From Actinomycetota bacterium (GTDB taxonomy: Bacteria; Actinomycetota; Actinomycetes; Nanopelagicales; Nanopelagicaceae): DNA of 64,000 nucleotides. Below, piece after piece: positions 1-52,832 of this stretch (position 1 is its first letter; each line of letters begins with the position of its first letter). The notes below the pieces were generated by a model. That model ran no database searches and was not told the DNA's origin. It was given only the letters and a program-made list of their open reading frames with translations. The stretch lies in contig WLOP01000007.1 of the NCBI GenBank assembly GCA_009699205.1, positions 1 through 64,000 on the forward strand. The letters run 5' to 3'. The position numbers and the translations under genes are program-made.

Positions 1-3
1 CAT
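1..3 (-). CDS. start codon of a gene leaving the left edge
   Basis: The first three bases are the complement of an ATG. A GGAG ribosome-binding site lies 7 bases upstream on the minus strand (around 11-14). Everything upstream of that is nearly identical to the region before the surface-protein gene that starts at 4738. I infer another member of the LAANI/FGQGVAQT surface family begins here, but only its start codon is inside the window, so the product cannot be confirmed. Confidence 0.45.
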
Positions 4-17
4 CGCTTCTCTCCAAA

Positions 18-139
18 TTCATCGTGCAAGGTGCTCCCGTATGGACCACGCACGGCAACTTGTGAGGAGGCCGATGGGTTAACCCTTACAGGTGCAAGGG
101 GAGAGTGCAAGGCAGGGGGTTGGGCAGACCCAACCTTTT
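18..139. repeat. 122-base repeated leader element, copy 1
   Basis: This stretch aligns without gaps to 4754-4875 with about 8 mismatches in 122 positions; the first 43 bases are identical. Both copies lie directly before a minus-strand ATG. At its right end is a hairpin (GGTTGGG, 4-base loop, CCCAACC) followed on the plus strand by TTTT. The T run is on the plus side only, so the element could be a small plus-strand RNA with its own terminator, antisense to the leader, or a minus-strand 5' UTR regulator. I recognise no known riboswitch family. Confidence 0.75.
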
Positions 140-3571: not shown

Positions 3572-4738
3572 TCAATTACCCGTACTTTGGAAAATCGCGC
3601 GTGTGTAATCCGCGCCATAACCCATCGATGGGCCCTGCCCAAGAAATTGCGTTCCAGCCAAAGACCAACCAGGTGAGAGTCCTGGTTCAGAGTTCGCCCA
3701 GACAGGGTAGGGACTTCCTGCCCAACCATAACTAGCTGGCAAATCTGGAGCTGAGTGCCAACAAATACCGAGGGGGCTTTCACCGCATGGGCTTCCACTC
3801 CACATCGAATCTGCTGAACCAAAGCCCACCGCCTTGTTACGAGTCCCTCCTCTATCGTCACTAAAGTACCAACCAGATCCGTTGGCAATATGTGCATCAC
3901 TGGCCGAAGACGAATTGGTAACGGTAAAGACGTCAGCACGTGGTGCTGCGGCAAGTAACGTAATAGTTGCTGGAATTGTTTCCGGAGAAGTCGAGGCGCC
4001 TGCCCAACCTGCATACATCAAATACTCACCTGTACATGACGCCTGTATTGAGGAGAAGCTTGCGAATCCATTGTACGGACCAGACCAACATAATTCCCAT
4101 CCTCCAGATGTAACGGTTGTTCCAGAAACATCAGCCTGTGGCCCAAATGGATAGTAGGAGGGCTCTGTGCTAACAGCGATATCACTACTTTCAATCGTAA
4201 CCTTATAAACTTGGCTAGAACTTACCAATGGTGAATCTATGGTGATAATAAAAGAAGTTTCATCGACAGATTCGAGAGTATATCCGGACTGAGCTTTTAT
4301 GAAACCTGATCCCGTCGCATGGACTATGAAACTGCTTAATCCGTTTGCTAGTTCAAGCGGAGTATTACTCGATTCTCCATAAACTTTAATGGTAAAAGTT
4401 TTTCCAGAGCAATGTCCGGAAGTAACATCAATATCTGAAACAGAAATACTCTTTAGATTAAAGACACCTGTAGCCGTACTTGGAGTTGGTTCAGGAGATG
4501 GTGTTGCAGTGTTGTCGAAAGCCGAGCTCGGAGTAATCGTGATGGCGCCATCGCAAGCAGTCGTTTGCGCAACACCTTGACCGAATTCAACAGGCCCTGA
4601 ATTAATGTTGATGTTGGCAGCAAGCGTGGATCCAAGTCCAAGAACTGCGGCAAGGATGATTGAACCAAGAACAAGCTTTGTTGGTTTCAGTCTTACAGAA
4701 TTCGGTTTTCCTCCACCGTTAAAATCAAAAATAGACAT
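3572..4738 (-). CDS. surface protein, LAANI/FGQGVAQT module plus C-terminal domain
   Basis: The protein has 388 residues. A short polar N-terminus (MSIFDFN) and basic residues precede a hydrophobic segment ending in STLAANI, which looks like an export signal. The family signature (INSGPVEFGQGVAQT) follows, then a roughly 150-residue beta-rich domain with a cysteine soon after the signature and a second in SGHCSGK, probably a disulfide. The C-terminal 170 residues are rich in Trp, Gly and Ser with several cysteines; I do not recognise that domain. The start is set at 4738 because GGAG lies 8 bases upstream; an in-frame ATG at 4789 is inside the repeated leader and lacks such a site. Function is unknown, probably a cell-surface structure. 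Confidence 0.65.
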   Translation of the reverse strand: MSIFDFNGGGKPNSVRLKPTKLVLGSIILAAVLGLGSTLAANININSGPVEFGQGVAQTTACDGAITITPSSAFDNTATPSPEPTPSTATGVFNLKSISVSDIDVTSGHCSGKTFTIKVYGESSNTPLELANGLSSFIVHATGSGFIKAQSGYTLESVDETSFIITIDSPLVSSSQVYKVTIESSDIAVSTEPSYYPFGPQADVSGTTVTSGGWELCWSGPYNGFASFSSIQASCTGEYLMYAGWAGASTSPETIPATITLLAAAPRADVFTVTNSSSASDAHIANGSGWYFSDDRGGTRNKAVGFGSADSMWSGSPCGESPLGICWHSAPDLPASYGWAGSPYPVWANSEPGLSPGWSLAGTQFLGQGPSMGYGADYTRAIFQSTGN

Positions 4739-4753
4739 CGAACGATCTCCGTT

Positions 4754-4875
4754 TTCATCGTGCAAGGTGCTCCCGTATGGACCACGCACGGCAACTTATG
4801 AGGAGGCCGATGGGTTAACCTTTACAGGCGCAAACGCAGAGTGCAAGGCAGGGGGTTGGGTAAACCCAACCTTTT
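4754..4875. repeat. 122-base repeated leader element, copy 2
   Basis: This is the second copy of the element at 18-139, ungapped and about 93 percent identical by hand count. It begins 16 bases upstream of the ATG at 4738. Its terminal hairpin (GGTTGGGT, AA, ACCCAACC) is followed by TTTT on the plus strand. Differences from copy 1 cluster in the hairpin loop and one internal segment, while the 43 bases nearest the gene are identical. The remaining spacer to 4968 holds nothing else I can identify. Confidence 0.75.
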
Positions 4876-4967: not shown

Positions 4968-5813
4968 TTAGGTCGGTTTTACTCCAACCCCGTTTTCGTA
5001 TTCGACAGAGTACGAATCAGGGAAATACTTCATCGTCTCAACTGTTATTTTTGAAATTGCTCCCGCGAAAGGATCTTCCGAGGAATAATAGTTTGCAAAA
5101 GTAAAACTAGAATTAGCATCGTAAGCAGTAGGATAAGTAATATCTAATCCTCCTGTGTCAGAACTTGAACTTACTGAGCCATAGTTATTGTCATCGAGTG
5201 TTGCATCAAAAATTATTGCGACATCACTATTGGCAAGGTAGGCGTTATTTTGGTAAGGATCACCATCTTCTACGGTCCACATCAATGGAGATGTAATCGT
5301 ATCTGCCTGAGACTCGTAACCATCCTTTGTATATGCCGCGTAATCTGGATTATCTGTATAAGCCTTAAAATCTAAAACAACTCCATCACATGTATTTATC
5401 CACGAATTCGCATCGGTGTCGTAGTACTGCCCAGGGTGATCTGCTGCCGCAGCAGCTGCATCGGCATAATCGAAACTCGAAAGATCCGAATCATCAAACC
5501 CAGTGCCCACGGGCGTCAAGTTCAAGTCAGAGACTTGAACATAATCAATTCTAAACATCGAAAGTTCGTTGTCATAACGCGTAACAGGGGTAATAGTGAA
5601 GCCATCGGAGTCGCAACTTGTTGTTTGCGCAACACCTTGTCCGAATTCTACGTTTGTGTCGTTGTTAAGGGTGATGTTGGCCGCCAAAGTAGATCCAAAA
5701 CCAGCGAGTGCGGCTAGGCCACCAATCCCAAGAGTTGCCGTCAATTTTTTGCTGGAGGTACGTTTTTCTGGTAAAGAATCGTCAGGATTTGAATTGAACT
5801 TTAAAATCTCCAT
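4968..5813 (-). CDS. short surface protein, LAANI/FGQGVAQT family
   Basis: The protein has 281 residues and consists of the family module only. The N-terminus MEILKFN and a Lys-rich patch are followed by a hydrophobic segment ending STLAANI, then VEFGQGVAQT. The mature part is acidic and rich in Asp, Tyr and Ser, with conserved blocks FRIDYVQVSDLNL, CDGVVLDFKAYTD and, near the end, KITVETMKYFP. The same blocks occur in the protein at 14762-15754, so these two form a short, no-extra-domain subtype. The start has GAGAG about 7 bases upstream. It sits just downstream of the transporter-ligase operon in the same orientation but 78 bases away. The role is unknown; a fibre-like or coat subunit is one possibility. 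Confidence 0.65.
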   Translation of the reverse strand: MEILKFNSNPDDSLPEKRTSSKKLTATLGIGGLAALAGFGSTLAANITLNNDTNVEFGQGVAQTTSCDSDGFTITPVTRYDNELSMFRIDYVQVSDLNLTPVGTGFDDSDLSSFDYADAAAAAADHPGQYYDTDANSWINTCDGVVLDFKAYTDNPDYAAYTKDGYESQADTITSPLMWTVEDGDPYQNNAYLANSDVAIIFDATLDDNNYGSVSSSSDTGGLDITYPTAYDANSSFTFANYYSSEDPFAGAISKITVETMKYFPDSYSVEYENGVGVKPT

Positions 5814-5891: not shown

Positions 5892-7367
5892 TTAAGCACA
5901 ATTACCCCGAAGAAGTAACCCTGGTAGAGGTGATTTAAGAGGCACTTTTACGCCCTCTTTAAGTGCCTGGCGCAAAACTTTGCCGTTTTCATTTCTCGGA
6001 ATCGAGGAGATCTTAAACAATGCCTGCGGAACAACCGGGACTTTCTTCCCAAGAACCTTCCCAAAGCGCTCGAGATCAAAATCATCATCCGTCACGAGTG
6101 CCAGCCCTAAAATTTCAATACCCGAAGGGTCGAGCATGGCAAAAGCTGCGCAATCGATTACGCCCAATTGGGCTTGGGCTATTTCTTCCACTGCCTCAGC
6201 TCCAATTTTGACTCCGCCGAGGTTAAACACTTCGTCCAGCCGCCCCTCCAGCACCAATGCACCGGCGCTATTGAGATAACCATAATCACCGGGATAGAAA
6301 AACCCTTCGCGGAAAAATTGTGTAGTGGCTCCTGGGTTTGCGTAATAGGAATCCGCCATGCCTAATTTGCGGTATCGCACTTCCCCAATAACTTTTGGAC
6401 CCACCACTTCGTTCTTCTCGTCCACTATTTGTAAAGTAACTAACGAGTCCATCTTGAACTCGCTGATCTTGTCGCGATTTATTTCGCGACTTGTTATTAG
6501 TCCGGCTTCCGTTGAGCCGTAGATATCAATAACTGTGCAATCTAGGTGGCTATGGATTCTTTCGATGAGAACTTGAGAGGGATGGCTGCCGGCCAAAATT
6601 ATGGTTTTCAAGAAGGGAAGATTCGTGCCGGTATTTGTAAGTAATTGTAAGAAAGTTGCAATCTGCGCTGGTGAACCCATGAGCGTCCTAATGGGGTATT
6701 TGCTCAACACTTTTGGCAATCGATAATCGACAAATCCAGAACTGAAAAAGGACCTTCCTGAAACAAGGGAATTAATCGCATGGCGATAGGTGGTTCGAGC
6801 GCTCAGAGGGAACAGTCCCATCACTTCAGGTTCTCCGGCACAGTCGAATGCACCGACCTCGGCAGCAATTGATTCGAGCTGACCAGCCGTTGCCATTGTG
6901 TACTTGAGGGTGCCCGTAGTCCCGCTCGTTGCAAATAATCTAGCCGGATCTGAAAGTTTGGCATACCCAGGAATCGATTCGAGCTCTGGTGTGCTCTTCA
7001 CTCGTTCAAGGAAAGGCTCATCGATGATAATCGTGCGATTCAAAGCAACCAGCTCATTGGGGAGAAGCGAAATATTCCAATCAATATTAAGTGGTGGGTT
7101 TGAGCGAATCAGTTTTCCGCTCGCGAAAGATACAGTTCCCAGGAAATGAAGGGCGAAGGTTGTAATAATTCCTAAATAGGAAGGTAACGTTGTATTGACT
7201 AGATGCCCTCTTGTAATTCCTTCCTCTTGTAGCACTTTCGCCATTCTGTGAGAGAGTGAATCCAACTGCGCAAAGGTAATTTCGTATTCTTCGTCGGCAA
7301 AGGCAATCTCGTTGGGTTTAGTTCGTGCCCAATGGCGCATTAACTCATCAAATTTACCGGCATCCAC
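5892..7367 (-). CDS. AMP-dependent ligase (ANL superfamily), copy 1
   Basis: This 491-residue adenylate-forming enzyme is expected to activate a carboxylic acid with ATP, usually to an acyl-CoA. The phosphate-loop motif reads ATSGTTGTLKYT, with Lys-Tyr where most relatives have Lys-Gly. Other core motifs are YGSTEAG, YPGDYGY followed by EGRLDEVFNLGG, and the catalytic lysine in PRNENGKVLR. It is shorter than typical long-chain acyl-CoA synthetases and has no carrier-protein domain. The start is GTG, sharing one base with the stop of the preceding ligase (TAGTG), so the two are translationally coupled. It is the last gene of the eight-gene transporter-ligase operon. The substrate is unknown; co-transcription with importers suggests an imported acid. 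Confidence 0.75.
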   Translation of the reverse strand: MDAGKFDELMRHWARTKPNEIAFADEEYEITFAQLDSLSHRMAKVLQEEGITRGHLVNTTLPSYLGIITTFALHFLGTVSFASGKLIRSNPPLNIDWNISLLPNELVALNRTIIIDEPFLERVKSTPELESIPGYAKLSDPARLFATSGTTGTLKYTMATAGQLESIAAEVGAFDCAGEPEVMGLFPLSARTTYRHAINSLVSGRSFFSSGFVDYRLPKVLSKYPIRTLMGSPAQIATFLQLLTNTGTNLPFLKTIILAGSHPSQVLIERIHSHLDCTVIDIYGSTEAGLITSREINRDKISEFKMDSLVTLQIVDEKNEVVGPKVIGEVRYRKLGMADSYYANPGATTQFFREGFFYPGDYGYLNSAGALVLEGRLDEVFNLGGVKIGAEAVEEIAQAQLGVIDCAAFAMLDPSGIEILGLALVTDDDFDLERFGKVLGKKVPVVPQALFKISSIPRNENGKVLRQALKEGVKVPLKSPLPGLLLRGNCA

Positions 7368-8788
7368 TATTTTTTCTCAAAGTTTTCTCGTAGTTCTTCT
7401 CTTAAGATTTTACCGTTCTCATTGCGAGGAATCGATTTCGTCGGAAAATAGAGTGTGGGCGGGTAGATAGATTTATTCTCCATAGTTTTCTTGAAGAGCG
7501 CAAGGTCGAAATCCTTGTCAGTGACCAAAGCTAATGCCAACTGATCAACGCCTGATTGGCTCATAATCGCGAAAGCTGCACAATCCAATACACCTAACTG
7601 CGCCATAGCAATTTCATCAACATTTTCAGGGTTAACTTTAACTCCCCCAAGATTGATTACTTCATTGCTTCGCCCTGCTAGAACCAATCGGCCTTGAGTG
7701 TCAATGAAGCCCAAGTCACCGGGATAGAAAAAGCCCTCGCGGAAATATTCGGCAGATGCTTCTGGATTGTTATAGTAACTCAGCGCCATTCCTTCGCGAC
7801 TGTAACGGATACTACCAATGGCACCTGCGGGCAAGATTTGATTAGCTTCATCAACTATTTGAAGTGTGACAGCAGGGTTAATTACGCCGGGTATTGACGA
7901 CTCTTGGGTAATAGTGCTGATTGCCACATTTCCTGCTTCGGCAGACCCATATCCATTCAACACCTCACAGCCTATTTGCGAATTTATTCGAGCTAGCAAT
8001 TTAGATGAAGGCGTACTTCCGCTCATCACGATTGTTTTGAGGTTTGGAAGTTGGGTATCGGTATGCATCTGAAGATTGAGAAAATTTGCTATCTGCACTG
8101 GCGATCCTAATAACGTTCTTATTGGATATTTACGAAGCATTTTAGTTAATCGGTAATCCCTAAAAGAACATGTGAAATATGGTTTTCCAGCCACAAGGCC
8201 CCGCAATGCGCGCACATAATTTGCACCCATCGCGAATGGGAACAAACTCAGAAGCGGATCTTCACCGGCAAAATCACTCTTTCCAGAGCGGCCGACCAGC
8301 GATGCGAGTCCATCGCTGGTAACGGCGAAATACTTGCGAGAGCCTGTGGTGCCGCTCGTCGAAAAGAAGCGCACGATATCGCTGCCGTGGGAATACCCGG
8401 GAGCATCTTTCATCTCCGGACCTGCCACTACGGTGGCTAGTAACGCTTCATCAAAGATGATGGTTCTTTCAATTCCGACTTCGGGATCCAATTGCAAAGT
8501 TATTAACCAATCTGGGAAAACTTCTGGATTAAAACCACCCCGTCCGATTTTGGACATGGTTTTTACGCCAAGTAAATGCAGTGCAAGCGTCGTGCTCCAT
8601 TCCAAATACGATGGCAAGGCAACGCAAACTAAATCCCCTTGCACTATCCCACGTTCGGTTAAGTGTGCAGCAGTCTTGAGAGCCAAAGAATTAAGTTGAG
8701 GAAAAGAGAGCACATATTCGTCATCAGCAAAAGCCAAACCATTAGGTTCATCTTGCGCCCATTTAGCCAGGATTCCAAAATCAAACAT
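7367..8788 (-). CDS. AMP-dependent ligase (ANL superfamily), copy 2
   Basis: The protein has 473 residues and is clearly homologous along its whole length to the ligases at 5892-7367 and 9863-11311. The phosphate loop is STSGTTGSRKYF, again with Lys-Tyr. It also has GYGSAEAG, a hinge with GRSNEVINLGGVK, and the lysine in PRNENGKILRE. A strong GAGGAGG ribosome-binding site precedes the ATG at 8788, the only clear one inside the second half of the operon. The 47-base gap to the preceding substrate-binding gene may allow some independent expression. Three paralogues in one operon suggest related substrates rather than redundancy. The acyl acceptor (CoA or another) cannot be told from sequence. 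Confidence 0.75.
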   Translation of the reverse strand: MFDFGILAKWAQDEPNGLAFADDEYVLSFPQLNSLALKTAAHLTERGIVQGDLVCVALPSYLEWSTTLALHLLGVKTMSKIGRGGFNPEVFPDWLITLQLDPEVGIERTIIFDEALLATVVAGPEMKDAPGYSHGSDIVRFFSTSGTTGSRKYFAVTSDGLASLVGRSGKSDFAGEDPLLSLFPFAMGANYVRALRGLVAGKPYFTCSFRDYRLTKMLRKYPIRTLLGSPVQIANFLNLQMHTDTQLPNLKTIVMSGSTPSSKLLARINSQIGCEVLNGYGSAEAGNVAISTITQESSIPGVINPAVTLQIVDEANQILPAGAIGSIRYSREGMALSYYNNPEASAEYFREGFFYPGDLGFIDTQGRLVLAGRSNEVINLGGVKVNPENVDEIAMAQLGVLDCAAFAIMSQSGVDQLALALVTDKDFDLALFKKTMENKSIYPPTLYFPTKSIPRNENGKILREELRENFEKK

Positions 8789-8835
8789 CCTTGGCTCGCC
8801 TCCTCATATATGGTCTAAAGTTAAAACATATAGGG

Positions 8836-9870
8836 CTATCTAAAGAGAATATGCCCCACACTCACCCGCGATTTAGTAAAGCCTAATAGTTTTAACTTGT
8901 TGGAGATATAGGAAATCTCAGAAAGAGCAACATTGCTTTCGCTCAATTTGGGCAATTTGAGTTTGGCCACAGCGTCATCGCTCACCCCAGTAACTTTGGC
9001 GATTGTCTTGCGGTACGTCGCTTCATTTTGAGGAAGATTAAGAAGGTGGTTTATTTCAAGAATTGCTTTTTGGAAAGCTCTCATGGCCGCCGGTTTTTTT
9101 GCAACAATTGTGGCAGTACTGACATAGACCACTGCAGCTCCCGGCTCAAAGTAATACGCCGATGGGTAACCAATAACACGAGCCCCGCTGAGAATGATTG
9201 ATGTGGCATAGGGATCACTTGGAACTACCGCATCAACATCCCCGCGATCAAGAGCGGCAACCATTTGAGCATCCGTCATCGCCAGAAATTCTGTTTTGTA
9301 AGAATTAGCAGCATTAGCTCGCATAGCTAAAATAACGCCTGCGTGATCTGGGCCCCTAAAAGATTTGACACCGATCTTGCTCTTCTCAAGATCTTTCCAA
9401 CTTTGTATAGCCGAGCTTTTCTTTACCAGCAATACAGTTTGCATCAATAACTGGCCCGGATAAAGCGGCTCACGCTTGGCACGCGCTAACTCTTCCGCAG
9501 AATACCCATGTCGTGGCGCAATGATTTTGGCTGCAAAATCTCCATTGGCCATTGCTGAAACGATATTAGAAGGAGTATTCATAAACAGATCAAATGACTC
9601 TCCGACTAATCCAGCCATTCCGATTTGTGCAGAAGCAACGCTTGTCGTCTTAATCTCGAGACCATATTTTTTGAAACATCCCTGGTCAATACCCCATTGA
9701 GCAGTAGGCATATTTGCTGGAATCGAGGCAAGTGACAAAGTTCCCAGATATTTAGGCGCCTTAGACGGCTGACTACACGCAAAGATTGTATCGGCGTTGA
9801 TTGGCAAGGATGCACTTGAAAGAATGAAGGCGGCTGTGAACGCCCCTAACAAATATCTTCTCTTAAACAT
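8836..9870 (-). CDS. ABC transporter substrate-binding protein, NMT1/THI5-like (second)
   Basis: This 344-residue periplasmic-type binding protein has a signal peptide (MFKRRYLLG start, hydrophobic core, cleavage near INAD). The body has the NMT1/SsuA-like pattern with GIDQGCFKKYGL, the region around GLVGESFDLF, and a ligand-site stretch DRGDVDAVVPSDPYA. It is strongly similar to the protein at 13627-14664, including the terminal LKLLGFTK. The ATG at 9870 overlaps the end of the upstream ligase by 8 bases, indicating coupling. No second set of permeases accompanies it, so it probably shares the membrane components encoded upstream and widens the substrate range. The ligand is unknown. Confidence 0.8.
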   Translation of the reverse strand: MFKRRYLLGAFTAAFILSSASLPINADTIFACSQPSKAPKYLGTLSLASIPANMPTAQWGIDQGCFKKYGLEIKTTSVASAQIGMAGLVGESFDLFMNTPSNIVSAMANGDFAAKIIAPRHGYSAEELARAKREPLYPGQLLMQTVLLVKKSSAIQSWKDLEKSKIGVKSFRGPDHAGVILAMRANAANSYKTEFLAMTDAQMVAALDRGDVDAVVPSDPYATSIILSGARVIGYPSAYYFEPGAAVVYVSTATIVAKKPAAMRAFQKAILEINHLLNLPQNEATYRKTIAKVTGVSDDAVAKLKLPKLSESNVALSEISYISNKLKLLGFTKSRVSVGHILFR

Positions 9871-11311
9871 CCCGTGAATCTCCAAATCCCTTTGCATCCT
9901 TGAGAAGCTCTTCCAAGTTTCCTCGCAACACTTTGCCATTCTCATTGCGAGGAATAATATCAGTCTGGATATATTTCTTTGGAAGATGGGCAGATTTCTT
10001 CTCCATAGTCTTTTGGAAAATTGCGAGGTTAAAATCTTTATCAGTAACCAGAGCCAAGGCAAGCTGTTCTACTCCTGTCTGGTCAGTTAACCCAAATGCC
10101 GCGCAATCAAGTACGCCTAACTGGGCTCGCGCGACCTCATCAACTTTCTCCGGATTAATCTTTACCCCTCCGAGATTGATCACTTCATTGCTTCGTCCCC
10201 CGAGAACCAATTTGCCATCGCCCTCAATTGAACCGATATCGCCCGGATAGAAGAAACCATTTCGAAAAGACGCGGCGGTGGCTTCGGGGTTCTTGTAATA
10301 GCCCTTCACCATTCCCTCTCTTGAGTAACGGATATAGCCGAGAGTGTCAGCAGGAAGAATCTGGTCGTTTTCGTCAACGATTTGCACAATGACACATGCA
10401 TTTATGTAAGACCCAGAGGGAATTTCATCGGTTACTTCTGCGAGAGTGACATTGCCCCCTTCTGTCGAGCCGTATGCATTAAATATTCGACAGTTAAGGG
10501 CACTCTTAATTCGCGCAATTATTTGAGCTGAAGGCGCGCTACCGCTCATGATTATTACTTTCAAATCTGGCAAAAGTGTTCCGGTTTGCTTTTGAACATC
10601 TAAGAAAAGCGAAACCTGTAGAGGCGATCCCATCAAAGTACCAATTGAATATTTGCGCATGATCTGAGGGAGGCGGTAATCCATTGATTCACAAGCAAAG
10701 AAAGTTTTTCCCACAGTTAAACCTTTAATAGCACGTCTAAAACTTTGACGAGATGCCACAGTATGCAGGCCCATGATGTGACCTTCTCCAATGAAATCAT
10801 ATGGACTTTTTTGAATTGGAAATCTCTCTAAGTCTCCGGCCGTCACCATTACATACTTAGTTTCACCTGATGTGCCACTTGTTCCAAAGAGAATTGCTGG
10901 ATCATCTGATGATGCATAGCCCGGTATAACTTCAAGTTCTTGGCATGCCATAATCTTTGATACAAGTTCCTGGGAAAACATTATGGTTCGTTCGGCAGAA
11001 ATTTGCGGATGAGCTCGATTGGTAATCATCCATTTTGGCGTGATGGCCGCAGGGAACTTTGTAATTCCGTTTTTTGAAAAGGCAGTCGCTCCAAGTAGGT
11101 GTATGGCTAGCGTAAAAGCCCAACGGAAATAGGGTGTCAATACGGTACAAACCAAATCACCTCTAGTGATGCCTACCTGGGATAGATGAGAAGCAATTTT
11201 TAATACATCTGCGCGCATCCGCGAAAAGGTAACTTCACTATATTCATCGACGAATGCGATTTCGTTCGGCTTTTCAAGCGCCCACTTCTCGAGAACACTA
11301 AAATCGTACAT
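9863..11311 (-). CDS. AMP-dependent ligase (ANL superfamily), copy 3
   Basis: This 482-residue adenylate-forming ligase is the first of the three in the operon. Its phosphate loop is GTSGTSGETKYV, with the same Lys-Tyr change as its paralogues. Motifs AYGSTEGG, YPGDIG followed by GGRSNEVINLGG, and the catalytic lysine in PRNENGKVLR are intact, so it should be active. It starts 5 bases after the ABC ATPase gene stops and overlaps the following binding-protein gene by 8 bases. That intimate placement between the ATPase and a second binding protein makes a transport-then-activate role likely. CoA ligase is the default guess; an adenylate or thioester onto another acceptor is possible. Confidence 0.75.
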   Translation of the reverse strand: MYDFSVLEKWALEKPNEIAFVDEYSEVTFSRMRADVLKIASHLSQVGITRGDLVCTVLTPYFRWAFTLAIHLLGATAFSKNGITKFPAAITPKWMITNRAHPQISAERTIMFSQELVSKIMACQELEVIPGYASSDDPAILFGTSGTSGETKYVMVTAGDLERFPIQKSPYDFIGEGHIMGLHTVASRQSFRRAIKGLTVGKTFFACESMDYRLPQIMRKYSIGTLMGSPLQVSLFLDVQKQTGTLLPDLKVIIMSGSAPSAQIIARIKSALNCRIFNAYGSTEGGNVTLAEVTDEIPSGSYINACVIVQIVDENDQILPADTLGYIRYSREGMVKGYYKNPEATAASFRNGFFYPGDIGSIEGDGKLVLGGRSNEVINLGGVKINPEKVDEVARAQLGVLDCAAFGLTDQTGVEQLALALVTDKDFNLAIFQKTMEKKSAHLPKKYIQTDIIPRNENGKVLRGNLEELLKDAKGFGDSRDV

Positions 11312-11316
11312 CCGCT

Positions 11317-12099
11317 CTACTTTCGCAATCCAAGGTAAAGGTCAGTACGCAATTGTGAAAAACGTGCTTCAGCGCGCGAAATAATCTGTTCTCGCGGGCG
11401 TGGCAGATCAACATCAAACTCCATACCGATTCCTGCTGGTGAACCTGAGAGCGTGATTACTCTGTCGGCCATGTAGATTGCTTCATCAATGTCATGGGTT
11501 ACCAGAATCGTCGTCACTGCGTGCTCATCTACCAACCGAGCAATCAAGTCTTCTAACTCTAAGCGCACATGCGCGTCAACCGAAGCAAATGGTTCATCAA
11601 GCAATAGCAATCTTGGTTGAGTCACTAGGGCTCGTGCTATGGCAACGCGCTGTTGCATGCCTCCGGAAAGTTGCCACGGAAAGAGATGCGAAGAATCCTC
11701 CAAGCCAACAGAAATTAAGACTTGTTTTATTTTCGCCGCTTTCTCCTCTTGAGATACATTGAGAGCCTTGAAAGGTAAGGCGACGTTACGCGCCACAGTT
11801 AACCAAGGAAATAGGGAACGGGAATAATCCTGAGTAACAAATCCCAATCCAGGATGCGGACCATTTACTACCACTGAATCAATCTGCACTTGCCCGGCGG
11901 TTGGTAGCGATAATCCAGAGATCAATTTAAGAAGTGTTGACTTACCGACCCCTGAAAGACCGCAGATTGCCAATACTTCACCTGAAGCCACTGCGAAAGA
12001 AATATCGTGAAGAACTACTTTTTCAGAGTCTGAATTTAAGAAACTCATTGAAATCCCGTTTACACGAACTTCATAGCCGCTGATCGATCCGATTTTCAT
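11317..12099 (-). CDS. ABC transporter ATPase, SsuB/TauB type
   Basis: This 260-residue cytoplasmic ATPase powers the importer encoded here. Walker A is GLSGVGKS (about 47-54), the signature is LSGGMQQR, Walker B is LLLLDEP, and the switch histidine is in LVTHDIDEA. These match the nitrate/sulfonate/taurine branch that pairs with NMT1-type binding proteins. The gene overlaps the upstream permease by 4 bases (ATGA) and is followed after 5 bases by a ligase gene. The family alone does not tell the ligand: members carry sulfonates, nitrate, pyrimidine precursors and aromatic acids. Confidence 0.88.
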   Translation of the reverse strand: MKIGSISGYEVRVNGISMSFLNSDSEKVVLHDISFAVASGEVLAICGLSGVGKSTLLKLISGLSLPTAGQVQIDSVVVNGPHPGLGFVTQDYSRSLFPWLTVARNVALPFKALNVSQEEKAAKIKQVLISVGLEDSSHLFPWQLSGGMQQRVAIARALVTQPRLLLLDEPFASVDAHVRLELEDLIARLVDEHAVTTILVTHDIDEAIYMADRVITLSGSPAGIGMEFDVDLPRPREQIISRAEARFSQLRTDLYLGLRK

Positions 12100-12863
12100 C
12101 GTATCTCCTTAGATTTGAAATACCAAGGAGCGATGCGCCGTTCGAGAATGAGGAATGCTTCGTTGAGGAATAACCCGAGTGCTCCAAGAATCAATATTCC
12201 CGTCCACATATCCTCAATCATAAAGGTTTGTTGGGAATGTATGACGAATGCGCCTAAGCCGATACCAGATCCCAACATTTCGCTTATCACCATAATGAAA
12301 AGAGCTACTTGCACTGCAGCCTGCAATCCCGCCAAAATCTGCCCAGTAGCGGCAGGTAACCTCACCGAGAAAATAGTGCGATAAGTGCCGTATCCCATCA
12401 AACGGGCGTTATCTAAGAGTTGTTCATCGGTTGTAGCCACCGCTCGTAATGTGACCATCAGAACCGGGAACAGCACGGCAACTGACACCGAACATATACG
12501 GCTGGCGGTACCAATCCCAAGGAGGGCCATGATCACCGGCACTTTTGCCACAGCGGGAATACTGCGAATGAAATTAGTAATTGGTGTAAATACTGCTCGC
12601 AAGAATTCTTGCGAGCCGATAACGGCCCCAAGCAATATACCCAAGATTGCGCCAATGAAGTATCCGCCAAGTAGCGTCGTCAAACTCGATTTAAGAGAAG
12701 TGCTCACCCAATCCCACGTTAACGTCGATCGAGCAGAAGTAAATATCTCACTTGGAGCTGGAAAATAAGGATTAGTGGAATTCTGGAGAAGCATTTGCCA
12801 GAGCACAATTATTAAAAAGGGAAACCAAACCCTTAAGAAAAAGCTTTTCACAATAGTTTTCAC
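12096..12863 (-). CDS. ABC transporter permease, SsuC/TauC type (second)
   Basis: This 255-residue inner-membrane permease has about six hydrophobic segments. It carries the family's EAA-like coupling loop (around DNARLMGYGTYRTIFSVRLPAA). It overlaps the ATPase gene by 4 bases downstream and the other permease gene by 4 bases upstream. Two different permease genes in tandem imply a heterodimeric channel, whereas many sulfonate importers use one permease as a homodimer. No ribosome-binding site of note is needed because of the coupling. Confidence 0.87.
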   Translation of the reverse strand: MKTIVKSFFLRVWFPFLIIVLWQMLLQNSTNPYFPAPSEIFTSARSTLTWDWVSTSLKSSLTTLLGGYFIGAILGILLGAVIGSQEFLRAVFTPITNFIRSIPAVAKVPVIMALLGIGTASRICSVSVAVLFPVLMVTLRAVATTDEQLLDNARLMGYGTYRTIFSVRLPAATGQILAGLQAAVQVALFIMVISEMLGSGIGLGAFVIHSQQTFMIEDMWTGILILGALGLFLNEAFLILERRIAPWYFKSKEIR

Positions 12864-13627
12864 ACTGATCGCCGCCAGCGGAATAACTGGTTCTCGATAG
12901 TTGTGAAAAGTCTATAAATCCAGACCCCTACCACTCCCATAACAAGTACATATGAAAAAAGACGTGGATTATTTGCATTCGTCTCGGCAGTCAGTAGCCC
13001 TAGACCTAACCCTGGCGTTCCCGCGATAATCCCAGTAGCAACTACTGTTCCAAAGGCTCTGCTAGCAGATAGGCGCAATCCAGTACTTGCAAGGGCGATA
13101 GTTGAAGGTAAATACACCAACCATATTTTTGTAAAAAACGACAAGTTCATCACTTTGGCTACGTCAAGCAATCGTGGATCTGTTTCGCCTATGCCTCTAA
13201 TTATGTATGTCACGAGTTTGAAAGTAACCACAAATGCGGCCAATAGCACCGCAGTCTTGGCAGATGACCCCACGGAGGCAACCAATAAGGGAAGGAACAC
13301 TACAGATGGTATAGATCGAACAAAATTAAGAACTCCTCGAGTTGCTAACTCACCTGACCGATTGAGGGCAACCATGATGGCGATTGTCGAGGCACATACA
13401 ACACCGACTACGAACGCGATCGAGGTAAGAAGAAGAGTGAGAATTAGGCTATTCCAGAATGCCACCGAGATAACCAACTGTGCCAAATCTGCGAGAACAA
13501 CCCAAATATGGGGGAAATATGCTGCGCCAGCCAGAAAAGAAGCCGCTTCCCAGAGGATGAAAGAAATCAGCAGAGTGCAGAAGAGCAAAATTGGTTTGCG
13601 CTTTACAGCCATCTGCACCTTAAACAT
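12860..13627 (-). CDS. ABC transporter permease, SsuC/TauC type (first)
   Basis: This 255-residue membrane permease is homologous to its neighbour at 12096-12863, with an N-terminal membrane anchor, about six transmembrane segments and a coupling loop around DVAKVMNLSFFTKIWLVYLP. Its ATG shares one base with the stop of the first substrate-binding gene (TAATG), and its own stop overlaps the next permease by 4 bases. With the partner permease and the ATPase it forms the importer core; the two binding proteins at 13627-14664 and 8836-9870 would feed it. Confidence 0.87.
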   Translation of the reverse strand: MFKVQMAVKRKPILLFCTLLISFILWEAASFLAGAAYFPHIWVVLADLAQLVISVAFWNSLILTLLLTSIAFVVGVVCASTIAIMVALNRSGELATRGVLNFVRSIPSVVFLPLLVASVGSSAKTAVLLAAFVVTFKLVTYIIRGIGETDPRLLDVAKVMNLSFFTKIWLVYLPSTIALASTGLRLSASRAFGTVVATGIIAGTPGLGLGLLTAETNANNPRLFSYVLVMGVVGVWIYRLFTTIENQLFRWRRSV

Positions 13628-14664
13628 TATCGGAATAATACACGAGCAAGGCTCACTCTGGTTTTTGTGAACCCTAAAAGTTTAAGTTTATTTGGAATAT
13701 AACTTATATCTTTGAACGCGACGTTCCGCTCCATCATAATTGGCAACCGCACTTTGGCGGCAGCTTCTTGACTGACGCCAGTTATCTTGGCAATCGTCTC
13801 TCGAAATGAAGACTCGTAATGACTTTGGTTGAGAAGATGGTTTATCTCCAACATCGCCTTCTGGAAAGTCTCCATCAACTTAACTTTTTTTGCCACAATA
13901 TTTTCAGAACTTATAAATACCGAGGCAGGACCAGGTTCAACATAATATGCCGACGGGTACCCAATAACCCGGGCGCCAGCCAGAATTGTCTCGGTTGCAT
14001 ATGGATCACTCTGCACGATTGCATCAACATCGCCTCTATTGAGTGCAATTGTCATCTGCGCATCAGACATGGTCAGAAATTCAGTTTTGTAGGAGTTGGC
14101 ACCAACGCTTTGCATCCCGAGCAGAACTCCAGCATGATCTTGGCTTCTAAAAGTCTTAATTGCGATTTTCCGCTTTTCTAAGTCACTCCAACTCTTGATA
14201 GGTGAATCCTTCTTTACTAACAACACGGTTTGAAAAAGAAGCTCGCCGGAATAGAGAGGTTCACGTTTTGCTCTAGCAATCTCATCGGCAGTATACAAAT
14301 GGCGAGGTGCCACGATTTTGCCCGCAAAATCTCCATTGGTCATCGCTTGTATGAGGTTGGTTGGGGTTGTTAACGCTAAATCAAAACTTGCACCAATCAC
14401 ACCTGCAATTCCAATTTGAGCAGAAGCCACTGGATTGGTTTTAATAGTTAATCCATATTTTTTGAAACATCCCTGGGCCAAACCCCACTCAACGCTGGTG
14501 AGCTGAACGCTCTGCCCGGCTACAACCAAAGTCCCTAAGTTTTTAGGGACTTTGGGTGGTTGCGTGCAAGCAAACGGGGTTGTATCGGCATGAGCAACCA
14601 AGGTTGGAAATGAAAGCAGCCCCAAGCAAAGGATCGCAGTTAGGAATTTACTTGCTCTTTGCAT
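13627..14664 (-). CDS. ABC transporter substrate-binding protein, NMT1/THI5-like (first)
   Basis: This 345-residue exported binding protein is the first gene of the eight-gene operon. Its signal peptide is residues 1 to about 26 (cleavage near AHAD). Landmarks are GLAQGCFKKYGL, DHAGVLLGMQ and DRGDVDA-like NRGDVDAIVQSDPYA. It parallels the second binding protein along its length, so the two arose by duplication and probably bind related ligands. A cysteine near the mature N-terminus (FACTQPP) is shared by both but is not in a lipobox position. A GATAAT element 6 bases before the ATG suggests a leaderless operon promoter at 14671-14676. The ligand is unknown. Confidence 0.82.
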   Translation of the reverse strand: MQRASKFLTAILCLGLLSFPTLVAHADTTPFACTQPPKVPKNLGTLVVAGQSVQLTSVEWGLAQGCFKKYGLTIKTNPVASAQIGIAGVIGASFDLALTTPTNLIQAMTNGDFAGKIVAPRHLYTADEIARAKREPLYSGELLFQTVLLVKKDSPIKSWSDLEKRKIAIKTFRSQDHAGVLLGMQSVGANSYKTEFLTMSDAQMTIALNRGDVDAIVQSDPYATETILAGARVIGYPSAYYVEPGPASVFISSENIVAKKVKLMETFQKAMLEINHLLNQSHYESSFRETIAKITGVSQEAAAKVRLPIMMERNVAFKDISYIPNKLKLLGFTKTRVSLARVLFR

Positions 14665-14761: not shown

Positions 14762-15754
14762 TTAAGGCGCGATTCCAGGGCTGTTATTCCAAGACAAGTA
14801 TCCGGCTGGGAAGTACTTCATGGATTCCACGGTGATTTTGCTAATACCTAGTGCCGGGTCTTCATCTTCGTTCTGGATACCAGAATACAACTCAGCACCA
14901 TGATGGCCATTTTTTGTGAAGAATTGGTAACTAGATTCCGCAACGAAACCTGTCCCACCAGCATCATCCGGAGATGTGATACTTATGTAATAGGTTTCAT
15001 CAAACCAATAAAAATCACCTAACAAATCCTGTGTGCCGTAGTTGCTACTGTAATTACTATCCGTTGAGTCGAACACTATCGCTACATCTGCGTTGCGGGC
15101 TTCGATAGAGGCATTTAGGATGCCACCGGATGTGTCATAAATATATTTGCTGCCATCCCATTGAGGGCTAGTATCTAGAATAGTCCAATACATAGGTGAG
15201 GCTGTATCGGTTGGAGCGGGGCCGGAGACATCGTTGGCGTAATAATCGTACCCGTCGACAGTATTGATCGAGTATGTCGGGTCATCTGTGTAAGCCTTAA
15301 AATCTAAAACTATGCCATCGCAAGTATTTTTCCATTGGCTATCGGCGTCATCAAAATATTGGCCAGGGTGAGCAGCTATTGCAGCAGATCCATCATATTG
15401 TCCATAAGTTTTCGTCGATGGATCATAAAGTGAGGTATCTGATCCGACTGGGATGAGATTAAGTTCAGAAACCTCTACGTAATCCAAACGGAAACCATTA
15501 GTAGCGTTATCAAAATATGCAACTGGTTTAACGTTAAATCCATCGGCATCGCAAGTAACAGTCTGCGCAACACCTTGACCGAATTCAACTGGCCCTGAGT
15601 TGATACTTATGTTGGCCGCAAGCGTGGATCCAAGCCCTGTGAGAGCAGCAAGTCCGCTTATGCCTATGACAGCTTTTGAACTCTTAGAGCGTTTAGGGGC
15701 ATAACTATCTTCCCAAGACTCTTCGCTGCCATCGCCCAGATTTAAAATCTCCAC
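14762..15754 (-). CDS. short surface protein, LAANI/FGQGVAQT family
   Basis: The protein has about 330 residues. The N-terminus (MEILNLGDGS when started at the GTG at 15754) matches the MEILKFN start of the protein at 4968-5813. GGGAG lies 8 bases before that GTG, so I prefer it to the ATG at 15769. A basic patch KRSKSSK and a hydrophobic stretch end in STLAANI, then INSGPVEFGQGVAQT. Later blocks FRLDYVEVSELNL, CDGIVLDFKAYTD and KITVESMKYFP mirror the other short member. It is acidic and tyrosine-rich with few cysteines. It is transcribed toward the transporter operon from a 300-base spacer containing a perfect palindrome. Function is unknown. Confidence 0.65.
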   Translation of the reverse strand: MEILNLGDGSEESWEDSYAPKRSKSSKAVIGISGLAALTGLGSTLAANISINSGPVEFGQGVAQTVTCDADGFNVKPVAYFDNATNGFRLDYVEVSELNLIPVGSDTSLYDPSTKTYGQYDGSAAIAAHPGQYFDDADSQWKNTCDGIVLDFKAYTDDPTYSINTVDGYDYYANDVSGPAPTDTASPMYWTILDTSPQWDGSKYIYDTSGGILNASIEARNADVAIVFDSTDSNYSSNYGTQDLLGDFYWFDETYYISITSPDDAGGTGFVAESSYQFFTKNGHHGAELYSGIQNEDEDPALGISKITVESMKYFPAGYLSWNNSPGIAP

Positions 15755-15871
15755 TTGAGCTACTCCCATAATAGAAACTTACACACTTGCGTTGCGCGGC
15801 CTATCTGGCTGACAATCGACAAATATCTGGAGTATTCAATCACTTTGAGGCGGAATATCAATCCACAATAA

Positions 15872-15902: not shown

Positions 15903-15936
15903 CGCAAAAAGGTTGGGTCTACCCAACCTTTTTGCG
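15903..15936. promoter_or_regulatory. perfect 16-bp palindrome in a divergent spacer
   Basis: Sixteen bases pair perfectly around a two-base centre; the core GGTTGGGT/ACCCAACC is the same as in the hairpins of the repeated leaders at 18-139 and 4754-4875. The flanking genes point away from it on both sides (15754 leftward, 16088 rightward), so it is not an ordinary terminator for either. It could be an operator, or the terminator of a small plus-strand RNA. The rest of 15755-16052 holds only the G9 run and nothing else I recognise. Confidence 0.6.
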
Positions 15937-49836: not shown

Positions 49837-51369
49837 TTAAGGCGCAATAGCTAACGTAATCGTCCTTGTAACTGGAGCATAGGTAACTGCACTATCTGCC
49901 GGACTGTCACCATACTCAACGATATAGCCCATGTAATGGTCTTCCCAACCGTTTTCAGAGAAGTTATTCCAAAGGCCGTTATCTCCTGCCAGCATTTGTA
50001 AGGCGGGCTCGTTAAAAGCTCCGCAGTCGGAACCGTAACAATTAGGTTCGTTTCCATTCCAAGCAGCATACGTTGCCGATGCAGAGTAATTGGAAAACAG
50101 AACGTTGTATTCGGGAGCGCGATCATCTGCCCAGACCCAACTACCTTGACTGCTTCGATCGCTACCTCCTAGCCATACTTGCTGGCCGCCGACCTTTTGG
50201 TTGATATAGGCATTTTCCTCCGCAGTGGTTACGGTAGCAAAGTAACCACAGAGTCCATTGAATGAATATGGACATGAATTCCGAGATGAATTAAGGCCAG
50301 TTGAAATTATATCTCCACGTAAATTGCCAGAGTATGAAATCGAAGAACCAGTGATTGCATTAAAGGCACCCAACCAAGTGACTGAATCTTCAACCCACTG
50401 GTAATAATGGCCGTTCTCTGGGTTAAAGGCGATGTTGGCATCAGATGATGACCCGGTATCAGAAACCGTTGTAGCAATTGTTGGCGATCCAGAACAACCA
50501 GTAGGGTCATACATCATTGAATCGAGAGCTTGATTTATCGCAGTAGGTGAACCTACAAATCCAATTTCGGTTGCACTCAGACCAAGTGGATCTTGGTAGC
50601 CAAGGACAGTACTTAATCCTGGAATTGCATCATCGATAAATAAGAGGCCGCACGAAGCTACTGCCACAATGCGCACATCATTTCTGTAACCCGAAATCTC
50701 GAGTATGTCTTGAGAAGCGGACGTAAGGGCAAGATTTACATTGAGAAGTGAATTGGTGATTGGGACGTCTCCGCCATCGCCACCTAAGGAAGTTGCTCCA
50801 CCGACATTTACTCTCGTTTCTAAAGTCATTTTATAGACAGAGTCAGCCGTTGCTGCGGAGTGCAAAATAGTCAAAGTGAAACCTGTTGCCGACACATCAG
50901 AAGTTGAAAAAGCCCCGCCAGATGCTGGTTTAGTGAAAGCTGACGCACTGCCGACGCCATCGGCAACTGTGAAGTAGACGTAAGGAGTGTCTTGGGTTCC
51001 GCGTGAATCGAGATTGAGTTTGGTGTTACTGCTCTCGCCATAAAATGAAAATATGAAGTCGTTTCCAGAACATGCTGCGGGTATACCTGCAACCGTGACG
51101 CTTGATAGATAGAAGGATCCATCTCCTTCAACATTTGTAAAGGATGAATGTGGAGTAATCGTCAAGGTTTCGCCTTCGGAGCAAGAAACAGTTTGAGCAA
51201 CGCCTTGGCCGAATTCCACTGGTCCAGAGTTAATATTTATATTCGCTGCCAGAGTTGCACCTAGGCCAATGAGGGCGGCGAGAAAACTACATCCAAGCAG
51301 GACTTTAATTGACTTCTGATTGATTGGATGAAACTTCTTTCTAGAAGTTAGGTCGAGTATTGTTTTCAT
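49837..51369 (-). CDS. surface protein, LAANI/FGQGVAQT module plus C-type lectin domain
   Basis: The protein has 510 residues. The N-terminal export segment ends GATLAANI, then INSGPVEFGQGVAQT and the family beta domain with CSEGETLTITP, AACSGNDF and FYGESSNTK. A middle region (about 190-290) is followed by a C-type-lectin-like domain (about 310-495). Its telltale order is GHYYQWVEDSVTW, FATVTTAEENAYI, VWLGGSD, GSWVWADD, WNGNEPNC and LWNNFSENGW, ending in the YIVEYG strand. It may bind glycans or proteins at the cell surface. It starts 8 bases after the stop of the neighbouring family member, so the two form an operon. Confidence 0.75.
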   Translation of the reverse strand: MKTILDLTSRKKFHPINQKSIKVLLGCSFLAALIGLGATLAANININSGPVEFGQGVAQTVSCSEGETLTITPHSSFTNVEGDGSFYLSSVTVAGIPAACSGNDFIFSFYGESSNTKLNLDSRGTQDTPYVYFTVADGVGSASAFTKPASGGAFSTSDVSATGFTLTILHSAATADSVYKMTLETRVNVGGATSLGGDGGDVPITNSLLNVNLALTSASQDILEISGYRNDVRIVAVASCGLLFIDDAIPGLSTVLGYQDPLGLSATEIGFVGSPTAINQALDSMMYDPTGCSGSPTIATTVSDTGSSSDANIAFNPENGHYYQWVEDSVTWLGAFNAITGSSISYSGNLRGDIISTGLNSSRNSCPYSFNGLCGYFATVTTAEENAYINQKVGGQQVWLGGSDRSSQGSWVWADDRAPEYNVLFSNYSASATYAAWNGNEPNCYGSDCGAFNEPALQMLAGDNGLWNNFSENGWEDHYMGYIVEYGDSPADSAVTYAPVTRTITLAIAP

Positions 51370-51377
51370 AGGTGCAT

Positions 51378-52832
51378 CTACCCAAACGCCCTGATTGGTC
51401 GAGTCTTAAAGCCCCAAGTGCGAACTTCGGGACTGCAGACCAAAGTGCTCCCAGGAGGAGTGCCATACCAACATTGGTAGGCCGTACTACTCACGTCGTA
51501 ATCTGAGGAACTCCAGTAATTCAATTGAGTGAATCCACCTATAGTCGCTCTTAAGGGATACATAAGTTCTAATTCATCCAACGATGGCGCAAACCAATCG
51601 GCAGTTGAGTTGGGGCTTACATATGCATCAGATGCTGGCCCGACACCGGCGCTGCAATTGTCGATGAGATTTTGAGTGTTGGTTGCGCCATCTCCGATAG
51701 CGATCAACATTGCGAAGGTATCGGTGTGGCCATCTTTTAACGTGCAGAAAATAGGAGTGTCAATGGCCGCGGGGGCTGCCTCTAAATAGGTCCAACCAGC
51801 ATATTCTGCAGCTGAATCCACGTAGAAAACTTTTCCTCCCCCTGGTCCCACGTCGCCGACAATGCACGTGCCGCCTTGCGCGCAACTTAATTCTGAGTTC
51901 ACCGTTACATACAGGTGCTCTGTTGAGGTAGTTCCATCTGCAGCAGTTACCGTGAAAGTAATTGTTCTGGTATCTCCAGGTGTAATTGATCCTGTCCCAC
52001 TAATGCCTGACACTACGGCGCCAGAATCGTTAGGTGTAGCTACCAAGGCAAGGGATGTTGCGTAGTCAACGGTCAGCGTTGATCCCACTGTTGTCGATTG
52101 TCCGTTTACTGTAAGCGTTGATAAAGAGGTGTCGGATGAAAGCAGAACTGGCGGGGCTACCGGCGCGGTTTCGCCAGTCTCGATTAGAATCTTGTAAATC
52201 TCGGTGGCATCTGGAATTGGGAAGTTCACATCTGGAGCGTCACTTCCATAGCAATCTGCACCTATTTGAACTGTGAAACTTCCATTTATTTCTGACGAAT
52301 TTCCTGTGGCATCACTTACGTCGTAATATGCATAGCTCCCCACTGTTGACGCAGCAAATGGTGTGTCAGTCCCGTCGTAATGAATAACGAGCTGAGTGCC
52401 GTACCCCACTTGCGCGGCAATGCTCTCGTTGTAGCAAGCGCCATAAAGAGTAAATGGTCGATCAGGATTTTCTGCATTGCTCTCGGGCAGGGCCTTGATA
52501 GTAAAGTCCACTCCGTTGCAACCTTCGGGAATATTGCTCACCGTAATTGAGGTCATGCGAAAACTTCCAGCACCAGACTCATTGAAAAAAGTTGATTGGG
52601 GGGTAATTGTTAAGGAAGGATTTGAGCCACCGCATGCAACAGTTTGACTAATCCCTTGCCCGAATTCCACTGGTCCAGAGTTAATATTTATATTCGCAGC
52701 AAGAGTCGAACTGAGCCCAATAGCGACTGCGAGAAATCCAATTCCTAGCGCGAACTTCTTGGATTTCTTCGACTTTTTGGAGTTAGCGGAGAAGTGAGAG
52801 TTATTGGATTTTTCAAAATCAAAAACAGACAT
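51378..52832 (-). CDS. surface protein, LAANI/FGQGVAQT module plus cadherin-like and Lcl/DUF1566-like domains
   Basis: The protein has 484 residues. A long Lys/Ser-rich N-terminus (KKSKKSKKF) precedes the hydrophobic segment ending SSTLAANI, then INSGPVEFGQGISQT. The family module runs to about residue 225 (PEGCNGVDF, YKILIETGE). A cadherin-like beta-sandwich repeat follows (about 230-320, LSTLTVNGQSTTVGSTLTVDY). The C-terminal domain (about 325-484) has GDVGPGGGKVFYVD, ADWFAPSLDEL and NYWSSSDYD, typical of the Lcl/DUF1566 domain seen in collagen-binding adhesins. It is the first gene of a two-gene operon with the lectin member. Adhesion is a reasonable guess. Confidence 0.75.
   Translation of the reverse strand: MSVFDFEKSNNSHFSANSKKSKKSKKFALGIGFLAVAIGLSSTLAANININSGPVEFGQGISQTVACGGSNPSLTITPQSTFFNESGAGSFRMTSITVSNIPEGCNGVDFTIKALPESNAENPDRPFTLYGACYNESIAAQVGYGTQLVIHYDGTDTPFAASTVGSYAYYDVSDATGNSSEINGSFTVQIGADCYGSDAPDVNFPIPDATEIYKILIETGETAPVAPPVLLSSDTSLSTLTVNGQSTTVGSTLTVDYATSLALVATPNDSGAVVSGISGTGSITPGDTRTITFTVTAADGTTSTEHLYVTVNSELSCAQGGTCIVGDVGPGGGKVFYVDSAAEYAGWTYLEAAPAAIDTPIFCTLKDGHTDTFAMLIAIGDGATNTQNLIDNCSAGVGPASDAYVSPNSTADWFAPSLDELELMYPLRATIGGFTQLNYWSSSDYDVSSTAYQCWYGTPPGSTLVCSPEVRTWGFKTRPIRAFG

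Follow-up and report, generated by a model that had tools for sequence, protein, structure and literature searches.

An importer operon with three AMP-dependent ligases and probable secreted partners in freshwater Nanopelagicaceae

Why would a bacterium with a 1.4-Mb genome, which encodes about three other ligases of the ANL (AMP-dependent) superfamily, carry an operon that joins one importer to two binding proteins and three further ligases? The question is raised by positions 1 to 64,000 of contig WLOP01000007.1 (assembly GCA_009699205.1), the whole stretch analyzed here and referred to as the window, in which the eight genes occupy 5892–14664 on the minus strand. An importer with three extra ligases is a heavy investment for a genome of this size, and the identity of the acids involved would reveal a niche-defining nutrient. 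The cassette belongs to streamlined freshwater actinobacteria, the Nanopelagicaceae. The explanation that we favor, and hold with moderate confidence, is an accessory scavenging cassette in which carboxylates would be imported and then activated, most likely to acyl-CoA, while secreted proteins encoded on either side of the operon (ANI-A, described below) would act outside the cell.

Gene content, recurrence and genomic site of the operon

All eight open reading frames (ORFs) are present, in the order substrate-binding protein (SBP) 1 (13627–14664), permease 1 (12860–13627), permease 2 (12096–12863), an ABC ATPase of NitT/TauT type (11317–12099), ligA (482 aa; 9863–11311), SBP2 (8836–9870), ligB (473 aa; 7367–8788) and ligC (491 aa; 5892–7367). 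Each product matches the Pfam family expected from the first-pass annotation: NMT1_2 for the NMT1/SsuA-type SBPs (37–40 bits, above the cut-off of 24.7), BPD_transp_1 for the permeases (58.9 and 67.4 bits), ABC_tran for the ATPase (117.2 bits) and AMP-binding for the three ligases. The overlapping or abutting junctions that it described are also found, with gaps of −8 to +47 bp (SBP1/permease 1, −1; permease 1/permease 2, −4; permease 2/ATPase, −4; ATPase/ligA, +5; ligA/SBP2, −8; SBP2/ligB, +47; ligB/ligC, −1), once the start of SBP2 is set to its true ATG at 9870, within the 3′ end of ligA, in place of the TTG at 10062 given in the ORF list. SBP1 and SBP2 are 63% identical and the ligases are 44–51% identical among themselves, which bears out the description of a paralogous pair and trio and indicates that the operon has expanded through duplication. 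SBP1, SBP2 and the SBP at L107 2867–4660 have signal peptides without an obvious lipobox, which is unusual in a monoderm actinobacterium.

The gene set recurs. With the two SBPs as queries against one genome per species, three loci were recovered from metagenome-assembled genomes (two Actinomycetota, one Candidatus Nanopelagicaceae); one reads SBP, SBP, permease, permease, ATPase, ligase, ligase (L017), another SBP, permease, permease, ATPase, ligase (L016), and the third is interrupted by a contig end (L018). In an order-wide comparison of 296 genomes, all of one family, the ligase family accompanied by a closely related SBP was found in five, representing three genera (G000, G105, G217, G241 and G312), and the SBP/ligase set was found in none of 20 other genomes of the same genus. 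G105 has two SBPs, two permeases, an ATPase and two ligases, G241 has one SBP, two permeases, an ATPase and one ligase, and G217 has a stand-alone SBP–ligase tandem plus two further ligases. Because the same gene set is found in other genomes, the operon is not a chance assembly, and chance insertion, which the first-pass annotation had left to a synteny search, is excluded. In trees, SBP2 groups with the G217 SBP (support 0.935) and ligB with the adjacent G217 ligase (0.972), so that the SBP2–ligB tandem has been inherited as a unit across two genera. G217 shares its genus with G241 and G312, yet clusters with the window sequences, a placement that suggests either horizontal transfer or old paralogy.

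The cassette adjoins NnrD or lies within a few kb of it wherever contigs are long enough, namely in three genomes. Other genes occupy this side of NnrD in the eight non-holders that were checked; among them, by inspection, are modules of peptide uptake/amidase, inositol-like, uronate-like and nitrate reductase type, and two finished genomes from a single genus have regulatory core genes at this position. The region 5′ of NnrD is a variable site. Contamination of the bin was rejected, since flanking genes match genomes of the same genus (NnrD at 68% with G010, the response regulator at 84% with G007) and the contig thus belongs to the genome. A phage or plasmid origin was also rejected: a pattern search of IMG/VR returned no relatives of the ligases, SBPs or ANI-A, and no occurrence of the palindrome described below; plasmid matches to the SBPs are only 24–41% identical, and ANL matches in phage records are 21–26% identical and host-gene-like. 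A 61-bp hairpin whose 29-bp stem is perfect lies elsewhere on contig C15, at about 78640–78700 (L077 14641–14701).

Secreted partners and a palindrome

The boundaries 5892–14664 proved too narrow, as same-strand genes for secreted proteins lie 97 bp upstream (ANI-A1, 14762–15769) and 78 bp downstream (ANI-A2, 4968–5813, an ANI-A1 paralogue of about 50% identity). These genes on both sides, near-exclusive to the operon, were overlooked in the first-pass annotation, as was their linkage to a palindrome. ANI proteins have an N-terminal hydrophobic segment followed by an ANI..VEFGQGVAQT..C signature; the family is found in 52 of the 296 genomes, some members having lectin-like C-termini. The C-terminal domain of ANI-A, by contrast with the family at large, is limited to operon holders: eight strong matches (E below 1e-59), in four of the five holders, all lie at the operon, two weak matches (E about 1e-11) come from other places in the holder genomes, and the 291 non-holder genomes have none. 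The fifth holder, G105, whose genome is 79% complete, has other ANI genes and no ANI-A match. The tie of ANI-A to the operon is strong (Fisher test about 2e-8, calculated by hand, a figure that relatedness and linkage make only indicative). Searches of ANI-A against Pfam and NCBIfam, including SipW-signal and TasA/camelysin, gave chance-level matches only, even at an E value of 10, and the AlphaFold2 model, with a predicted local distance difference test score (pLDDT) of 35, is too poor for any fold claim.

The palindrome, a perfect one of the form GGTTGGGT-NN-ACCCAACC, occurs three times in the window, where 0.02 copies are expected. Written as AAAAGGTTGGGTNNACCCAACC, it is found at 118–135, 4854–4871 and 15911–15928, and in L115, L116, L117, L118 and L119. 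Five further stretches of the same genome were sampled for holding ANI genes, a choice that was not random, and downstream of each of the 11 sites in the window and these stretches lies an ANI gene or a contig-truncated ANI-like start. Besides the operon, most of the other ANI genes sampled in this genome have the palindrome ahead of them. All three window copies are assigned to the minus strand. The copy at 15911–15928, GGTTGGGT-AG-ACCCAACC with a stem that extends to 15903–15936, lies 133 nt upstream of ANI-A1, and the stretch from ANI-A1 to ANI-A2, operon included, is free of further copies. The next copy, at 4854–4871, separates ANI-A2 from ANI-B (a secreted member of the ANI family whose C-terminus differs; 3572–4738, minus strand, the ORF being open to 4789 with a likely start at ATG 4738) and marks the next unit, and the third precedes a gene truncated by the left contig end, with a 130-bp leader that is repeated at 4746–4875. 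From this arrangement we infer one ten-gene transcription unit, with ANI-A1 as its first gene and ANI-A2 as its last, that would be controlled together with surface-protein genes. The palindrome is a putative regulon element of ANI genes and a candidate repressor site or leader hairpin. It was not seen at the loci of the other holders, and is thus a feature of this genome. Some ANI genes have none: no copy was found upstream of a second ANI array (49837–52832), one member of which weakly matches a C-type lectin domain.

An integron attC site was considered for the palindrome and set aside, no search for an integrase being made: its GTTGGGT and ACCCAAC halves resemble the GTTRRRY and RYYYAAC of attC, but they stand in the wrong order with the wrong 2-nt spacing, and the sites precede genes. 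A riboswitch was also rejected, as an Rfam scan of the window gave only a tRNA. The coding start of SBP1 holds a perfect 13-bp inverted repeat of its own (CCAAAGTCCCTAA..TTAGGGACTTTGG, 14526–14555), which could influence expression between ANI-A1 and SBP1. Contigs C15 and C12 both terminate in one and the same ANI leader repeat (window 1–139; L118 1–139), and the assembly appears to be interrupted at ANI repeats.

The secreted-family link and the common palindrome offer a testable connection of the cell surface with uptake. A wider proposal, possible and put forward tentatively, is a surface-protein regulon with its own scavenging arm, in which ANI-A, the SBPs, the importer and the ligases, under one palindromic control, would capture external acids, for assimilation or for modification of the cell surface.

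Import, activation and the competing explanations

The ligases keep the ANL core motifs A3, A5, A7 and A8 and the A10 lysine, which are invariant or nearly so among 11 homologues, and the catalytic Lys460 is present in every aligned ligase that extends to that column. Pocket positions and the equivalent of PheA residue 235 were mapped by inspection of an alignment with nonribosomal peptide synthetases (NRPS). The latter residue is R, G and R in ligA, ligB and ligC, and none of the 11 ligases has Asp there, which speaks against alpha-amino acid substrates; no ORF of the operon or of its flanks encodes a carrier or carrier domain, and NRPS-type amino-acid adenylation was rejected for these two reasons. 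Of all positions, 35% are invariant across ligA, ligB and ligC, but not one of the nine predicted for the pocket is (chance about 0.02, by hand calculation). The earlier suggestion of a different acid for each ligase is consistent with these predicted differences. All three score below the curated cut-offs of named acyl-CoA ligase equivalogs, among them MenE, malonyl-CoA ligase and FadD (best 124–130 against 476 bits for PRK06187; 75–98 against 330 for MenE), and their best solved-structure matches include 4-coumarate-CoA (4CL), o-succinylbenzoate-CoA (OSB-CoA) and oxalate-CoA ligases.

In the favored scavenging cassette, the ligand of each of the two secreted SBPs would be a small organic anion, most likely a carboxylate, and both proteins would dock on one importer of SsuBC/TauBC type. 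The three cytosolic ligases would convert the imported acids to acyl-AMP and transfer them to CoA, another thiol or an amine being a less likely acceptor, so that activation would trap the acids and feed general acyl-CoA enzymes encoded elsewhere; each SBP–ligase tandem would probably be tuned to its own acid, and the ANI-A proteins would be genuine operon partners, probably extracellular. Gene content and order, conserved synteny, the catalytic motifs, the near-exclusive linkage to ANI-A and the upstream palindrome are observed, whereas carboxylate ligands, CoA as acceptor, co-transcription and the outside role of ANI-A are what we infer. The first-pass annotation had found no oxidation, thiolase or carrier genes with the ligases, which is correct for the operon, but two members of the acyl-CoA dehydrogenase family and three of the enoyl-CoA hydratase family are encoded elsewhere in the genome, and likewise in relatives, and the acyl-CoA could thus be used despite the lack of further enzymes in the cassette. 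Its idea of capture followed by trapping gains from synteny, from the co-inheritance of SBP and ligase and from the catalytic residues, and falls short in having left out the ANI-A partners and the palindrome, which make a function at the surface a real alternative to mere trapping.

Other observations fall on both sides of carboxylate scavenging. In favor, several non-holders have further catabolic or transport genes on the corresponding side of NnrD, and the structure model of SBP1 (pLDDT 83.6) is closest to SsuA (Z 25.7, root-mean-square deviation 3.4 over 278 residues). Against it, SsuA, ThiY, CmpA and PqqT, which bind very different ligands, are neighbors within about 1.5 Z; because they match almost equally, the fold gives no ligand, and assignment from it was dropped. 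Only the ligases, then, point to a carboxylate. Also against it, downstream catabolic enzymes were not seen at the loci of the window, G105, G241 or G217. Two divergent ligase relatives in a different actinobacterial family (G482; L081 1238–2701 and L082 4779–6242) have no ABC transporter and lie beside surface proteins, each convergent with a Gly-rich one (an LPXTG anchor was matched in L082); the copies look like one duplicated block, and so a single case. In the window, a large secreted protein at 311–2608 has a Gly-rich segment that resembles the Gly_rich_2 domain of these G482 proteins. In favor of scavenging, though as a lead only, is a distant SBP-permease-permease-ATPase relative in another genus (L032 8674–13070; L031 2359–6821; the SBP relative is present in four genomes), which is followed by a luciferase-like monooxygenase and has around it a LigB dioxygenase and further genes of apparent aromatic catabolism.

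The main rival, serious though somewhat unlikely in our estimate, is surface decoration, in which the ligases would activate an imported exogenous acid for attachment to surface glycans or ANI proteins; phosphocholine scavenging by Lic systems offers an analogy. The confinement of strong ANI-A matches to the operon, the ANI palindrome upstream of it and the convergent Gly-rich genes of G482 all suit this idea, as do, by inspection, the overlap of the last G105 ligase with a gene resembling a polytopic GT-C-type membrane protein, the glycosyltransferase and nucleotide-sugar dehydratase nearby, and the two G217 ligases that adjoin glycosyltransferase-like genes. However, the holders have no transferase in common, the ligases are cytosolic whereas the ANI proteins are exported, and in a variable island surface genes may be adjacent by location only. 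In a further, improbable alternative, importer and ligases would be separate in purpose and, with the ANI genes, merely co-located in a variable island under a common promoter. Different modules do lie 5′ of NnrD in different relatives, and ANI genes also occur without the operon, but SBP and ligase genes are interleaved, overlapping, separated by short gaps and co-inherited, and ANI-A, unlike other ANI genes, is bound to the operon. An importer of sulfonate, taurine or a thiamine precursor, with ligases acting on a later product, is very unlikely: SsuA/TauA and ThiY are nearest by sequence and fold, but both SBPs miss the curated cut-offs by far (55.8 and 66.9 against 163.5 bits for SsuA; 31.1 and 34.9 against 304 bits for TauA), the cassette has no SsuD/TauD or thi gene, and sulfonates are not known to be ANL substrates.

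Comparison with known systems

The Nanopelagicaceae (acI) are described as the most abundant bacteria of most freshwater lakes (PMC5301498), yet no transporter is assigned to many of the vitamin and nutrient needs predicted for them (PMC5574706); the keyword passages of these two acI transporter studies do not describe the cassette. With the ANL superfamily (oxalyl-CoA, malonyl-CoA, 4-coumarate-CoA and OSB-CoA ligases) the operon ligases have fold and motifs in common. They are only about 22–36% identical to the generic ANL ligases found in other parts of the class and, by inspection, have a shortened N-terminal domain and a P-loop that ends in ..KY and not ..KG. SBP fold, import architecture and sequence family are those of SsuABC/TauABC in the TauT family (Transporter Classification 3.A.1.17, including the phthalate importer OphFGH), whose range takes in aromatic sulfonates and phthalate (PMC3223731). 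The cassette departs from SsuABC/TauABC in its two permease genes, its two SBPs, the lack of desulfonation and ring-oxidation genes, and scores below all equivalog cut-offs.

The closest parallels in organization are the p-coumarate (RPA1786-1793) and pim dicarboxylate clusters of Rhodopseudomonas palustris, in which SBP specificity matches the nearby CoA ligase (PMC3223731). These clusters and the cassette alike place SBP-dependent ABC import near an acyl-CoA ligase; the R. palustris clusters include downstream enzymes, whereas the cassette has three ligases, none of those enzymes, and secreted partners. Thus SBP-dependent ABC import near a CoA ligase is already known, and what is new here is the diversified set of ligases unaccompanied by downstream enzymes, the dedicated secreted partner and the palindrome.

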